From contig JAHYIS010000019.1 in assembly GCA_019429385.1 (NCBI GenBank), positions 1-45,093 of the forward strand: 45,093 nucleotides of DNA, in the 5' to 3' direction. Source of the DNA: ANME-2 cluster archaeon. Its GTDB lineage: Archaea; Halobacteriota; Methanosarcinia; Methanosarcinales; Methanocomedenaceae. Shown here piece by piece: positions 1 through 11,841 of this stretch. A program made the translations under genes and the position numbers. Below the pieces are notes generated by a model. The model worked only from the letters and a program-made list of their open reading frames with translations, ran no database searches and was not told the DNA's origin. Each line of letters opens with the position of its first letter. The stretch's first letter is position 1.

Positions 1-3000
1 GGTTCGTATCGTGCAAGGAATCACCAATACCGTGACAGTTGTCACAGAAACCAACGGATTTATTAACAGGATGCCGAATCTGGGTGGCATTGGCCCATAA
101 GGGGGCATTGGTGGTGTTCTTGTGACATAATGTACAGTCAGTTGTGGGCTGGACGGCACTGATATTTGTACTTGTCAGGCTGCCGTAGTGAGAGACGTTC
201 GAGGCATCTGATTCATTTGCACTGCCGTTTACCGGATCATTGTTATACATAAGTGAATTCTTATGACAGAGAGTACAATCCACAGCTATAGATGTGTAAA
301 TATCTGTACTGTCGTTGATGATCGCCTGTGGCACGTGCTCGATAGTAGCATTGGGCTGGCTGCCATTTATGAATACACCAGACGGTGTACCATTAACGTG
401 GCACTGTCCCTCACTACAGTTGAGCGGCCTTGTGGTATTGGCAGGAACGCCTACACCAAGTGAATCATTAACGTGGCCGCTGGGTTCGGAACCATTGCCA
501 TGACAGGCCCAGCAAGCCTTGCTCAGGGAATTGTTAAGTGCCGTAACATTGACCGCATCCTTGTTCAGGTCTTTGTGGATACTCAGACCGAATGCGGTTT
601 CGTTAACATCTGCCTGGGGTTTGCCCAGACCGTGGCAATCGATACAATCAGATGTACCGCCTGATGCGGTGATGACACCGATGTCATGGAGATACGTGGT
701 ACCGTTGATGTGACAGCCGTAACAGTCATCACCATACGTTGAATGGTTGGTCCATGCAGAGATGTTCGAAGCACCAAAGACCGCGCTCTGGGTCTTGTGA
801 CAGAACACACACCCCTGGCTTCCATTGATACTGTTCTCAACCCAGCCTACGGTATCTATTACATAGTGGTTGTCACCATCGGCAACGTTCTTTACATAGT
901 GACCTGTGGGGCCTGTGCCGTCATCCAGCACCATGCTGGTATTACTGCCGTTGCCGGGTATGGATTGGTTGAATATGGGCACCTGGGTTTTGCCGTGACA
1001 GAATTCGCAGTTCTGGGTAGTGCGGATGAAACTTGCCTCAAGTCTGCTGTACTGTGTGGCATTATCGAAGTGGGAACCTACAGAGATTGGAGAGGAGGCA
1101 TTACCGTGACATGCGCTGTCGGCACATGACAGATTTGAAGCATTGTACCGTATCGTTTTGGAGGTATGCTCTGCCTGGCCGGTAGCTTCTGATGGAGCTG
1201 TACCGTCCCTATGGCATGTGTAACATTGTTTGTTGTTTGTGGCATTGCCGTTACTGATGTTCATGTGTGGCGACTGGGTGAACAGCGTCATGTTGATATT
1301 ATTTGCACCAGCAGCATCGTGACAGGCCACACAATCAGGGCCGCCGGCTGAACCACCGGTTATGCCTGAATTATGAAGTTTATATGATGCATCCAATCCA
1401 CCGTGACAGCCGTAACACTCAGTGTTGACCTTACCGTTGTGGAGACTTCCGAAACCCACACGCGGGTCAACAGGTGTACCCCATGAGGCGTTGGCTGTAT
1501 TATCGAAATGGCAGAATGTACAGTTGCTACTGGTGATGGTTGGGGTCATCAGGTTAAGGGTAGCATTCTTCAGATAATGTGAAGTGGATGCATTTGTTGC
1601 ATTCCCGCCTGTTGTCAGACCGAATCCGTCAGCTTCAGTGATTGAAGTGAGGCTGTTGTTATGGCATACTGCACATTCAGTGGTGTTTGTAGCCACTGTG
1701 GGTCCGCCCTTTCTATGCTCTGTGACCTGCGGTGCACTTAAGTTAGTGGCGGCAACGGTGTTTACGTGACATTCAGGGCATGTCCTGGGGGTATTGTAAT
1801 TGGTAGGATGGCTGGTCGAGGGCTGGTCACTCTGGTTGGCAATACCGCTTGCATTCAGGTCGCCGTGGCAGCCCCAGCACTTCTTGTTCTTAGCCGAAGC
1901 TGTGGTATTGGTAGCCACACTGTTCAGGTCAGCGTGCGCTCCGACAGCGATGTTCGTGAAGTCCACATTGTTCTGTGAACCACTTACGTCATGGCATGAG
2001 ATACAATCAGGATTGGCACCTACACCGGTGAGGGTGGTATGCATGAGTTCGGTAATATTTGATGCTGAACTGTTGTGGCAGGCTGCACAATCATTGTCAT
2101 TGAAGCCGGAAATGCCAGTGTGGTCGTAGTAGGGGGTGCTGTCCTGTGCACCTGCAGGATAATTGCCATAAGTAGCATTCCCTGTTATCTCCGGGGGCAC
2201 CAGGTTCAGGGTGCTGAGCATGTTGTTATAGTTTGGACTACCCTGCTTATGGCAGGCTGCACACCAGTCACCGGTCAGGTCGCCGCCAATAACATTGGAG
2301 CCTTTGAATGAATTGATATAACCTGCAGCGACAGCGCTGTGTTTGGTCTCGCCGTGACAGTACAGGCACTTGGATTCATCATCGGCTGCAGTCCAGAAAT
2401 CAGTACCTCTATCCCACAGCGTACCATTGAGGATGTTATTGCTGTGGGTTATTTGTGTTATTTTGGGTGCAGTGGCGAATGATGCCAGCCCGCTGCCCAC
2501 GTGGCAATCGGGACATGAGGCTGCATTGGTCCTTGTGGTGGCAAAGTTATTGTCGTTCTGGATGAACTTGATCACGTGTACATCCTGGGTATGACACTCA
2601 GTACAAGCTACTGTAGTATTATGCTGGGTCAATCCCTGATGGCAGGTAGTACAATGGGAGTCCTCTGTGGGTCCTAAAGTTCCTGCTGAAGGGTCAGGTT
2701 TGGTGATGTTGTGCATGGGACCGTGGCAGATGATACAGGGAATGCTGGCATCTGCGTCGTGGTATGTGGAGGTTGTGGAATAATTGGCGACCACACCATT
2801 AAGCGTGGTCTTCATGGTAGTGTTTGAACTACTATGGCAATTCGTACAGCTACCAATGACCATATTTGTTTCATGAGACACTATAGTACCGTGACAGTTG
2901 GCATTGTCGCAACGCAGGCTGCTGTGTGAACCTTCAGTATTCATACTTGGTGTATAACCCTGGCCATTGTAGGATAGATGGCAATAGGTACATTGGGCAC

Positions 3001-4012
3001 CATTATGTTCTCCATCAATCAAAAAAGATTCTTCCTTAAGTTTTCTCTCCCCTAAATATGGTGAGTTAATAATATTACTATTACTATCAACTAAATCTCC
3101 TTTATCATTACCATGACCCTCGCAACTTGCTCCTCCAACACAACCCCACCAGTTATAGATAAACTTGTAACTTCCTGTTACATCTGATGCGTTGACGTCT
3201 ACCTGCCATTTTCCATAATAATTTTTAGCATTGAGGTTCCGTGATACATTAATAAGTCCTTTACTGTCTGTTGAATATATACTTGTGTAATCTGTGGCCC
3301 CACCTGGATTCTTAAGAGTTAATGTCACATTTGTATTAGACATAGGCAACCCATCATTATCAAGTACAAGGGCATAAATATTAACTGTTGTCTTGATACC
3401 TGAAAAATCATTACTACCCCAATTACTGGATGGAACTATAAAACCAGTTCCTGAAGCTGTACCCCCAGTAGTGGCGTCATCCAGCACTACATATCTGTTT
3501 GTGGCAACCAATATTTTAGAAGGACCAGTGTAAACACTTAATAAAATATCTGCATTTGATACCGGTCCAGCATTCACTACTTCAGTTGTGGAATTGTCAG
3601 CATAACCCGATTTGCTGGCAGTTATCAAATATGTGCCATTGGCCAGGCTGAATGAATAATATCCAGAGCCATCAGTTGAAGTGGAATTGCTGGTATTGGT
3701 TGAAACAGTTGCCCCGCTTATGGGATTACCTGTTGAAGCGTCCTTTACATAGCCTGATACCGAATAATTGGTAACCGTAGCAGCACTCCCCGCCCCCGCC
3801 AGCGCCAGCAATATCAGCATGGCCACTGCAAGCAACATCCCGGTCCTGAGCATAAAGCGGCAGGCATCGCCCTGCGAATTTCGAGACCGTCCGGTATCCG
3901 GTGCGGTTGAGATTGGTTTACTGACTGAGCCTGATGTTGAAAATCGAGTAGATGTACATCTACTTTGCCCGGAAACTATACCTTTTCCCATGTCAGTAAT
4001 TCTTTTTTTCAT
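1..4012 (-). CDS. Giant multiheme c-type cytochrome, C-terminus outside window
   Basis: The reading frame is open from an ATG at 4012 to the left edge (at least 1,337 residues). A GGGTGG ribosome-binding site lies 7 bases before this ATG. Residues ~54-78 form a hydrophobic export signal ending GAGSAA; an in-frame ATG at 3853 is an alternative start just before it. Residues ~83-145 resemble a carboxypeptidase-regulatory-like beta-sandwich (GYVKDASTGNPISGA). From residue 341 on I count 25 CxxCH heme motifs and three CxxxxCH motifs (2891-2911, 1106-1126, 398-418). The linkers are rich in Asn, Thr and Ser, as in exported archaeal proteins. Very large cytochromes of this kind are known from ANME-2 and Methanoperedens, where they are thought to carry electrons across the cell envelope; that role here is inference. 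The gene appears monocistronic or is preceded by a tiny ORF. Confidence 0.93.
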   Translation of the reverse strand, partial: MKKRITDMGKGIVSGQSRCTSTRFSTSGSVSKPISTAPDTGRSRNSQGDACRFMLRTGMLLAVAMLILLALAGAGSAATVTNYSVSGYVKDASTGNPISGATVSTNTSNSTSTDGSGYYSFSLANGTYLITASKSGYADNSTTEVVNAGPVSNADILLSVYTGPSKILVATNRYVVLDDATTGGTASGTGFIVPSSNWGSNDFSGIKTTVNIYALVLDNDGLPMSNTNVTLTLKNPGGATDYTSIYSTDSKGLINVSRNLNAKNYYGKWQVDVNASDVTGSYKFIYNWWGCVGGASCEGHGNDKGDLVDSNSNIINSPYLGERKLKEESFLIDGEHNGAQCTYCHLSYNGQGYTPSMNTEGSHSSLRCDNANCHGTIVSHETNMVIGSCTNCHSSSNTTMKTTLNGVVANYSTTSTYHDADASIPCIICHGPMHNITKPDPSAGTLGPTEDSHCTTCHQGLTQHNTTVACTECHTQDVHVIKFIQNDNNFATTRTNAASCPDCHVGSGLASFATAPKITQITHSNNILNGTLWDRGTDFWTAADDESKCLYCHGETKHSAVAAGYINSFKGSNVIGGDLTGDWCAACHKQGSPNYNNMLSTLNLVPPEITGNATYGNYPAGAQDSTPYYDHTGISGFNDNDCAACHNSSASNITELMHTTLTGVGANPDCISCHDVSGSQNNVDFTNIAVGAHADLNSVATNTTASAKNKKCWGCHGDLNASGIANQSDQPSTSHPTNYNTPRTCPECHVNTVAATNLSAPQVTEHRKGGPTVATNTTECAVCHNNSLTSITEADGFGLTTGGNATNASTSHYLKNATLNLMTPTITSSNCTFCHFDNTANASWGTPVDPRVGFGSLHNGKVNTECYGCHGGLDASYKLHNSGITGGSAGGPDCVACHDAAGANNINMTLFTQSPHMNISNGNATNNKQCYTCHRDGTAPSEATGQAEHTSKTIRYNASNLSCADSACHGNASSPISVGSHFDNATQYSRLEASFIRTTQNCEFCHGKTQVPIFNQSIPGNGSNTSMVLDDGTGPTGHYVKNVADGDNHYVIDTVGWVENSINGSQGCVFCHKTQSAVFGASNISAWTNHSTYGDDCYGCHINGTTYLHDIGVITASGGTSDCIDCHGLGKPQADVNETAFGLSIHKDLNKDAVNVTALNNSLSKACWACHGNGSEPSGHVNDSLGVGVPANTTRPLNCSEGQCHVNGTPSGVFINGSQPNATIEHVPQAIINDSTDIYTSIAVDCTLCHKNSLMYNNDPVNGSANESDASNVSHYGSLTSTNISAVQPTTDCTLCHKNTTNAPLWANATQIRHPVNKSVGFCDNCHGIGDSLHDTN

Positions 4013-4299: not shown

Positions 4300-4834
4300 T
4301 TTATTAGAGTTAATTATATATAAATCTTCGTGTGATTACAATCATGATAATGATGGCTGGGGTAGATTTTTGCTAATTATTTATACTGTATACCTTCAAG
4401 TAAAAACCTGTGCTGAAGTGCTGCATTCGCCTAATAGACCAGCGTTGAATGATTGCGCTCAGTCGACATAGTTGGAAAAGAACGTCGGAACTTCCCCTGG
4501 CATTTGGCCACCCTTCACCTGCCCGGACAGGTCAGGATCATTCATCAGCAGTTCAGTCACATCGAACATATGCCGTATTTAACAATCGCTCATCTTCTCT
4601 ACCTTAGAAAACATATCCCCGGGAGCCCACCAGAACCATCCGACAGGTGCCTGTTCAACTCATCCCGGCTCATAGCAACAGGTTGCACCACAGGCTCGAC
4701 AAGATTATACCTAAACTTTAACCTCAACATACAGCTCAAGGTCAGCATAAATACCAGAATAGTGCCACAGCGCAATTAAAAGGAAAAAAGTCATGTCAGA
4801 AATATCAGATATAGCGGGAGCTTCCCAACATTGA
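4300..4834. other. Intergenic stretch without a convincing gene
   Basis: Short plus-strand frames exist here, but they lack ribosome-binding sites, family resemblance and a coding pattern. The region is a mix of AT-rich and CT-rich sequence and probably holds the promoter side of the cytochrome and decayed sequence. I see no RNA gene in it. Confidence 0.4.
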
Positions 4835-11412: not shown

Positions 11413-11841
11413 ATGGCCGGCTATTCCCAAGTATTAGATCATAGATTTGAAAGAACTCTAAATATCAATGAAGAAATTAGAGGGTTTAACAAGACCATCA
11501 AATCAATGTCAGAGTTTAACAGAATTGAGTTCATAATACTTTACGGTTCGGCAGCACGGGGAGATGCAATATCAGGTTCGGATATAGACCTGTGCATATA
11601 TTATAATGCAGATGAAAAAGAAGACCTATCCCGATTCAGGCTGGATATTTTAAGCAGACTAAAAGGGAGTGTTTTTGACATCCAGATGTTCCAGCAACTG
11701 CCCCTGTATGTCAGGGTAGAGGTATTGAAGGGCAGGATCATATATACCAGAGAGCAGAGTTTCCTGTACGGTATTGCACTTGATACGATTAGAGAATTTG
11801 AATCCTTTAAACCAAGATTCCATGATTACATTTACCGGTGA
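11413..11841 (+). CDS. mntA: MNT-type nucleotidyltransferase antitoxin
   Basis: The 142-residue protein has the minimal nucleotidyltransferase motif GSAARGDAISGSDIDL (Gly45-Ser46, Asp57, Asp59). In MntA-HepT pairs this enzyme AMPylates and so neutralises the HEPN RNase toxin. The downstream HepT frame starts 3 bases after the MNT stop, the classical order, but it is broken. The antitoxin itself looks intact. There is no clear ribosome-binding site, so the transcript may be leaderless. Confidence 0.85.
   Translation: MAGYSQVLDHRFERTLNINEEIRGFNKTIKSMSEFNRIEFIILYGSAARGDAISGSDIDLCIYYNADEKEDLSRFRLDILSRLKGSVFDIQMFQQLPLYVRVEVLKGRIIYTREQSFLYGIALDTIREFESFKPRFHDYIYR

Follow-up and report, generated by a model that had tools for sequence, protein, structure and literature searches.

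The route by which ANME archaea pass electrons out of the cell is still an open question, and one that bears on methane removal. A gene at the end of one contig of an ANME-2 cluster archaeon poses this question on the scale of a single protein: are all motifs of a very large cytochrome, irregular ones included, heme sites, and where would such a protein act?

A truncated cytochrome gene at the contig end

The window, i.e. the whole stretch of DNA that we analyzed, is the complete contig C19 (45,093 bases) of a 2.4 Mb genome that also encodes an McrA close to Methanosarcinales-type chains. Positions 2-4012 of the minus strand, a strand that the preliminary description does not give and on which all features of this gene and of its upstream region named below lie, form one reading frame that starts with ATG and stays open for 1,337 codons, up to the contig end; the gene runs off the contig, therefore the cytochrome is truncated and its N-terminal portion alone is visible. 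The preliminary description had given the product at least 1,337 residues with 25 CxxCH and three CxxxxCH motifs, and our ORF scan and motif count reproduced these figures exactly. Following its suggestion to extend the gene to the stop codon, we found no other contig identical to window positions 1-150. Contigs C41 and C51 were considered as the continuation; their cytochrome tails are near-identical (98.9% across 457 bases, the similarity ending at the stop codon; L091:2-454 and L092:5696-6148), yet neither could be assigned. Elsewhere in the window, positions 11413-11841 encode an MntA-like antitoxin (nucleotidyltransferase) with a score below the curated cut-off.

Judged by its sequence, the gene probably encodes a secreted giant multiheme cytochrome c with a chain of at least 28 hemes, which would work extracellularly, either as an electron wire or as a docking cytochrome. 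The frame starts with a signal-type hydrophobic segment (residues about 54-78; 3779-3853; hydrophobicity) preceded by an unusually long N-region, and M1, M54 and M59 are all candidates for the true start. Across the 57-residue N-terminal extension, substitutions showed no codon-position bias and indels in the closest relatives preserved the frame. The signal-type helix (about residues 59-77) is the sole hydrophobic segment, in agreement with the earlier remark that the visible part lacks a clear membrane anchor. It is followed by a carboxypeptidase regulatory-like domain (residues 84-158; 3539-3763; PF13620, CarboxypepD_reg, Pfam E 5e-16), which confirms a domain that the preliminary description had placed at the N-terminus, and by an MG2/Ig-like domain just under the curated cut-off (residues about 209-277; 3182-3388; PF01835).

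The Ig-like region ends in a site found by sequence comparison that we call the WWGC site (WWGCVGGASCEGH; CVGGASCEGH, residues 291-300; 3113-3142), where C291 and C297 are the only cysteines of the mature protein outside any recognized motif. The site reads C-X5-7-C-X2-4-H in the window protein, in its paralog on contig C16, in genome G006 and in the Methanoperedens types; its equivalents are CxxCH in the C22 paralog and in the second unit of the G059 protein, and CX4CH in G018. Either a heme has been replaced here by a disulfide, or a heme sits on a motif whose His is distant from the second Cys.

Heme motifs and their histidines

The heme region (2-3007) holds the 28 motifs at about 36 residues per heme. 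The features by which a multiheme cytochrome c is recognized, at least three motifs, distal ligands and an export signal, were found as 28 motifs, 32 His outside motifs in the mature protein and the signal-type helix. Exactly one non-motif His stands ahead of 25 of the 28 motifs, all three CxxxxCH included, and two stand ahead of each of the remaining three; under random placement the number of motifs with exactly one preceding His had a mean of 10 and a maximum of 21 in 100,000 trials. Chance likewise yields few CxxxxCH motifs: composition-preserving shuffles gave a mean of 0.0012, and three were never reached in 20,000.

Pfam matches of the heme region were of generic MtrC/MtrF-, c7- and c3-types. 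The Pfam model GSu_C4xC__C2xCH (PF09698) did not match the window protein up to E 1; it matched five stretches of one Methanoperedens-type relative. Comparison of a family profile of the heme region with the PDB retrieved the multiheme 'cytochrome c family protein' 3ov0 (E 6e-7), which we take to be the c7-type chain GSU1996 of Geobacter. AlphaFold models of residues 332-720 and 880-1337, built with one homolog in the alignment, were unusable (pLDDT 28.8 and 27.1).

The CxxxxCH motifs as probable heme sites

The preliminary description left open whether the three wider motifs, CDNANCH (residues 368-374; 2891-2911), CADSACH (963-969; 1106-1126) and CSEGQCH (1199-1205; 398-418), bind heme or are structural. 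A motif scan and site-by-site alignment of the window protein with 23 homologous segments, which share ancestry and thus are not 23 independent observations, revealed that sites 368 and 1199 are occupied by CX4CH or CxxCH and site 963 by CX4CH, CX5CH or CxxCH. The exchange also runs in the other direction: at site 389 the window protein has CxxCH, the Methanoperedens-type proteins have CX4CH, and members of the C22 group have CX13CH or CX18CH. In this way the relatives offer a natural series: depending on the site, the two cysteines of one heme position are separated by 2, 4, 5, 13 or 18 residues.

Cysteine accounting was possible in the complete paralog on C22 (2,245 aa), where 100 of 100 cysteines fall into 50 motifs (45 CxxCH, three CX4CH, one CX11CH and one CX18CH); the account closes only when CX4CH, CX11CH and CX18CH are counted. 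CX18CH is the weakest of these sites, with no His in the stretch just ahead. Two relatives in genome G004, of 50 and 63 motifs, also have zero leftover cysteines. Since C22 carries 50 motifs against 45 by CxxCH alone, surveys limited to CxxCH undercount hemes in these proteins. Heme attachment at such motifs is not new in kind: in Methanosarcina acetivorans MmcA, heme on CX3CH and CX4CH was proven by mass spectrometry (PMC11024163), motifs with extra residues between the cysteines were reported in ANME cytochromes (Chadwick 2022, PMC9012536), and OmcZ has a CX14CH motif with a solvent loop (PMC11208441).

His pairing, cysteine accounting, exchange with CxxCH in relatives and the MmcA precedent make heme sites with wider spacing the best reading of the three motifs, and of the two halves of the earlier alternative the evidence clearly favors the first. 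That the CxxxxCH cysteines are disulfide-bonded or coordinate some other metal, which would leave 25 hemes in the visible part, draws on their departure from canonical spacing and on the non-motif pair C291/C297, maybe a disulfide; with a distal His retained at every one of the three sites, CxxCH substituting for them in relatives and CX4CH attachment proven in MmcA, we consider it very improbable. As heme sites, the three motifs would be ordinary links of the chain, set apart by a short loop inserted between the two cysteines.

Two further motif types were seen among these proteins. A conserved CX11CH unit (CFNYNNNTGNGACHG type) occurs in many giant cytochromes of the window's genus and in one Methanoperedens-type protein (L043, L044, L046, L048, L092 and L109), and CAKCKSPxNYD, which has a CxxCK motif like that of the NrfA nitrite reductase active site, lies inside giant cytochromes of C16 (once, L042) and C35 (twice, L046).

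The missing C-terminus and the place of action

To complete the picture of the protein we turned to C22 and C5 (6,598 aa), the complete paralogs nearest to it. The two share the ending ...MGTYWACSTCH and lack a C-terminal helix. This CSTCH tail is present in four copies in the window genome, and a search of 60 genomes found it at high similarity in no other genus; being shared by C22 and C5 and restricted to the genus, it is likely the end of the window gene as well. By comparison with these two, the missing part would comprise about 900 further residues with some 20 further hemes and the terminal CSTCH, and no membrane anchor. The visible part would consist of small beta-sandwich domains, forming a stalk at the N-terminus, and of at least 28 bis-histidine hemes in a chain, and the protein would act outside the cytoplasmic membrane. 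The exported, surface-related electron carrier envisaged by the preliminary description gains support from the signal-type N-terminus, the surface-type domains and the giant relatives in ANME and Methanoperedens-type genomes. The C5 protein itself (L044:614 to L045:407) has about 3,900 heme-free residues with MG2 and FG-GAP repeats, followed by 73 heme-type motifs and the tail.

Alternatively, the missing part could hold an S-layer domain and a membrane helix, making the protein an S-layer conduit of ANME MHC type A or B. Such an architecture exists nearby: C18, and with it the related family C18/C24/C38 of the window genome, combines an S-layer domain with a hydrophobic helix close to the C-terminus, a relative in G004 has an S-layer domain and a C-terminal helix, and a specialized heme-attachment gene was reported to adjoin MHC-B (Chadwick 2022). 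However, C22, the closest complete paralog, and C5 end at CSTCH, and a C-terminal transmembrane helix was absent from both as well as from the visible part. No S-layer domain (PF07752) was found in the 1,337 visible residues, the remainder of the gene lying beyond the contig, nor in C22 or the first 4,000 residues of C5. The M6 peptidase-like region of type B was absent by Pfam from the N-terminus, which is made of CarboxypepD_reg and MG2-like domains instead. An S-layer conduit is on this evidence improbable.

We give a similarly low probability to head-to-tail polymerization into a filament whose subunits would meet at the terminal CSTCH heme. Cytochrome filaments are known from archaea and bacteria, and a tail that is conserved in the genus, stops exactly at a heme motif in four genes of the window genome and comes with no anchor would suit such an assembly. 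Nevertheless, known filament subunits are far smaller, and the terminal motif of C22 and C5 has its own nearby upstream His (GDLH/GNLH ... CSTCH), so that a neighbor's ligand is not needed; since His precedes the terminal motif, the CSTCH end is no proof of filament formation. The preferred reading remains a secreted wire or docking cytochrome.

Exchange of heme modules among paralogs

Paralogs of the window gene lie on contigs C16, C22, C5, C35, C18, C24 and C38, many of them cut by contig ends. Comparison with the C16 paralog revealed a tract of 97-99% DNA identity (residues 443-562; 2327-2686) in which third positions are 93-100% identical, while third-position identity of the flanks is 65% just before and 41-43% just after (downstream). 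Heme modules are exchanged among the paralogs by gene conversion; module exchange is also seen in the near-identical tails of C41 and C51. The repeated modules are probably also the cause of the broken contigs. That C24 and C38 are recent duplicates was considered and rejected: they are 100% identical over 7.9 kb and overlap C18 by 127 bases, which suggests that the assembly is responsible. In ANME-2 cluster archaeon B4-08, a fragment (L072) has 84-90% DNA identity to both ends of the window gene and is far more divergent between them, a pattern consistent with module shuffling or with assembly breaks at shared modules.

A ResB-CcsA-radical SAM cluster next to the giant cytochromes

Downstream of the giant cytochrome on C22, and in the same orientation, lie genes for ResB (PF05140, E 3e-46), CcsA (TIGR03144, 194 bits against a cut-off of 187.6) and a B12-binding radical SAM protein that most resembles BchE (TIGR02026, 411 bits, below the cut-off of 481); the ResB and CcsA/ResC pair that marks System II is thus present on the window genome's own contig. 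In G006, contig C378 carries a cytochrome tail, ResB, CcsA, radical SAM and the start of a window-like gene. The order in the Methanoperedens-type genomes G037, G033 and G053 is radical SAM, a small opposite-strand thioredoxin-type gene, ResB, CcsA and giant cytochrome; G059 has the same gene set, the thioredoxin assignment having been checked in this genome only, and G029 has the cluster minus the radical SAM gene.

The window itself has no ResB and no CcsA. It does contain a decayed remnant (4462-4800; E 4e-18) of a BchE-like B12 radical SAM gene, namely its 3' end, which corresponds to residues 382-496 of the C22 protein in two frames with several stops. The remnant lies 450 bases upstream of the cytochrome start, behind a leader conserved with G006 contig C378 (4013-4258; sequence comparison), on which an intact radical SAM gene precedes the same gene start at similar spacing.

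Strong ResB matches were confined to three of the 136 genera sampled (394 genomes of the phylum): the window's genus, the Methanoperedens-type genomes and one further genus. Some ResB-CcsA clusters have no adjacent cytochrome, and ResB is missing from some genomes that do carry related cytochromes; therefore, the link between these cytochromes and System II is not strict. The window genome encodes nine cytochrome c assembly proteins (PF01578), several of CcmF/CcmC-type. In G004:C255 (L125) and G029:C76 (L133), ResB-CcsA lies near a CcmF-like gene of 650-670 aa, i.e. parts of System I and System II adjoin, and a separate archaeal genus outside the order (family f7, L160-L166) has shorter ResB-like proteins of 322-338 aa.

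Gene adjacency suggests that a dedicated System II synthase serves the window cytochrome family. A more specific proposal, an archaeal System II (ResB/CcsA) of the family's own that would be tuned to CX2CH through CX18CH, with a BchE-like radical SAM protein modifying the heme before or after attachment, seems rather unlikely to us, and the modification step is speculation. Systems II-V were reported absent from archaea (Kletzin 2015), and a 2023 review makes the general statement that archaea have systems I and II. Our literature search, with most subscription journals outside its coverage, found no published account of a ResB-CcsA-radical SAM-cytochrome cluster. Its recurrence suggests a testable explanation of how dozens of hemes, irregular ones included, are loaded on one chain in archaea.

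Comparison with known systems

Wolinella has separate synthases, CcsA1 for CX15CH and NrfI for CXXCK (PMC12285233). The archaeal case would resemble it in combining non-standard motifs with a dedicated CcsBA-type synthase, as gene adjacency suggests; unlike the fused bacterial CcsBA, ResB and CcsA are separate and archaeal. MmcA, an archaeal cytochrome from the order to which the window organism belongs, likewise has wide motifs, CX4CH and CX3CH; it differs in its seven hemes, its OTR-like predicted fold and its place in the Rnf operon.

Relatives on viral contigs were not found. Pfam showed no pectin lyase domain in the visible part of the protein, which, on its visible sequence, belongs with the giant ANME cytochromes yet fits none of types A, B and C (Chadwick 2022, PMC9012536). 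It is like these types in size class, dozens of hemes, wide motifs, archaeal host and presumed role in extracellular electron transfer, and unlike them in its N-terminal carboxypeptidase-regulatory and MG2-like domains and in the CSTCH tail of its complete relatives. The Methanoperedenaceae giants (Leu 2020, 113 hemes; PMC7327174) are homologous over most of the visible part at about 32-44% identity, sharing the WWGC site and the CX4CH positions, and have the same neighboring gene cluster as relatives of the window gene. The 5,615-aa Methanoperedens-type protein of G029 (C49; L105:2745-19589) has 113 CxxCH, seven CX4CH and one CX6CH, 121 in total; its 113 CxxCH equal the published number, which supports the name Methanoperedenaceae for the family of G029, and the published figure appears to omit the wide motifs. 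The window genome would belong to a different family within this order, probably of ANME-2 type; its order and ANME-like character are judged from McrA, from the hit to ANME-2 cluster archaeon B4-08 and from the neighbors. Compared with the window family, the Methanoperedenaceae giants are longer, a membrane helix stands at the C-terminus of at least one of them, and the CSTCH tail, not found in them, sets the window family apart.
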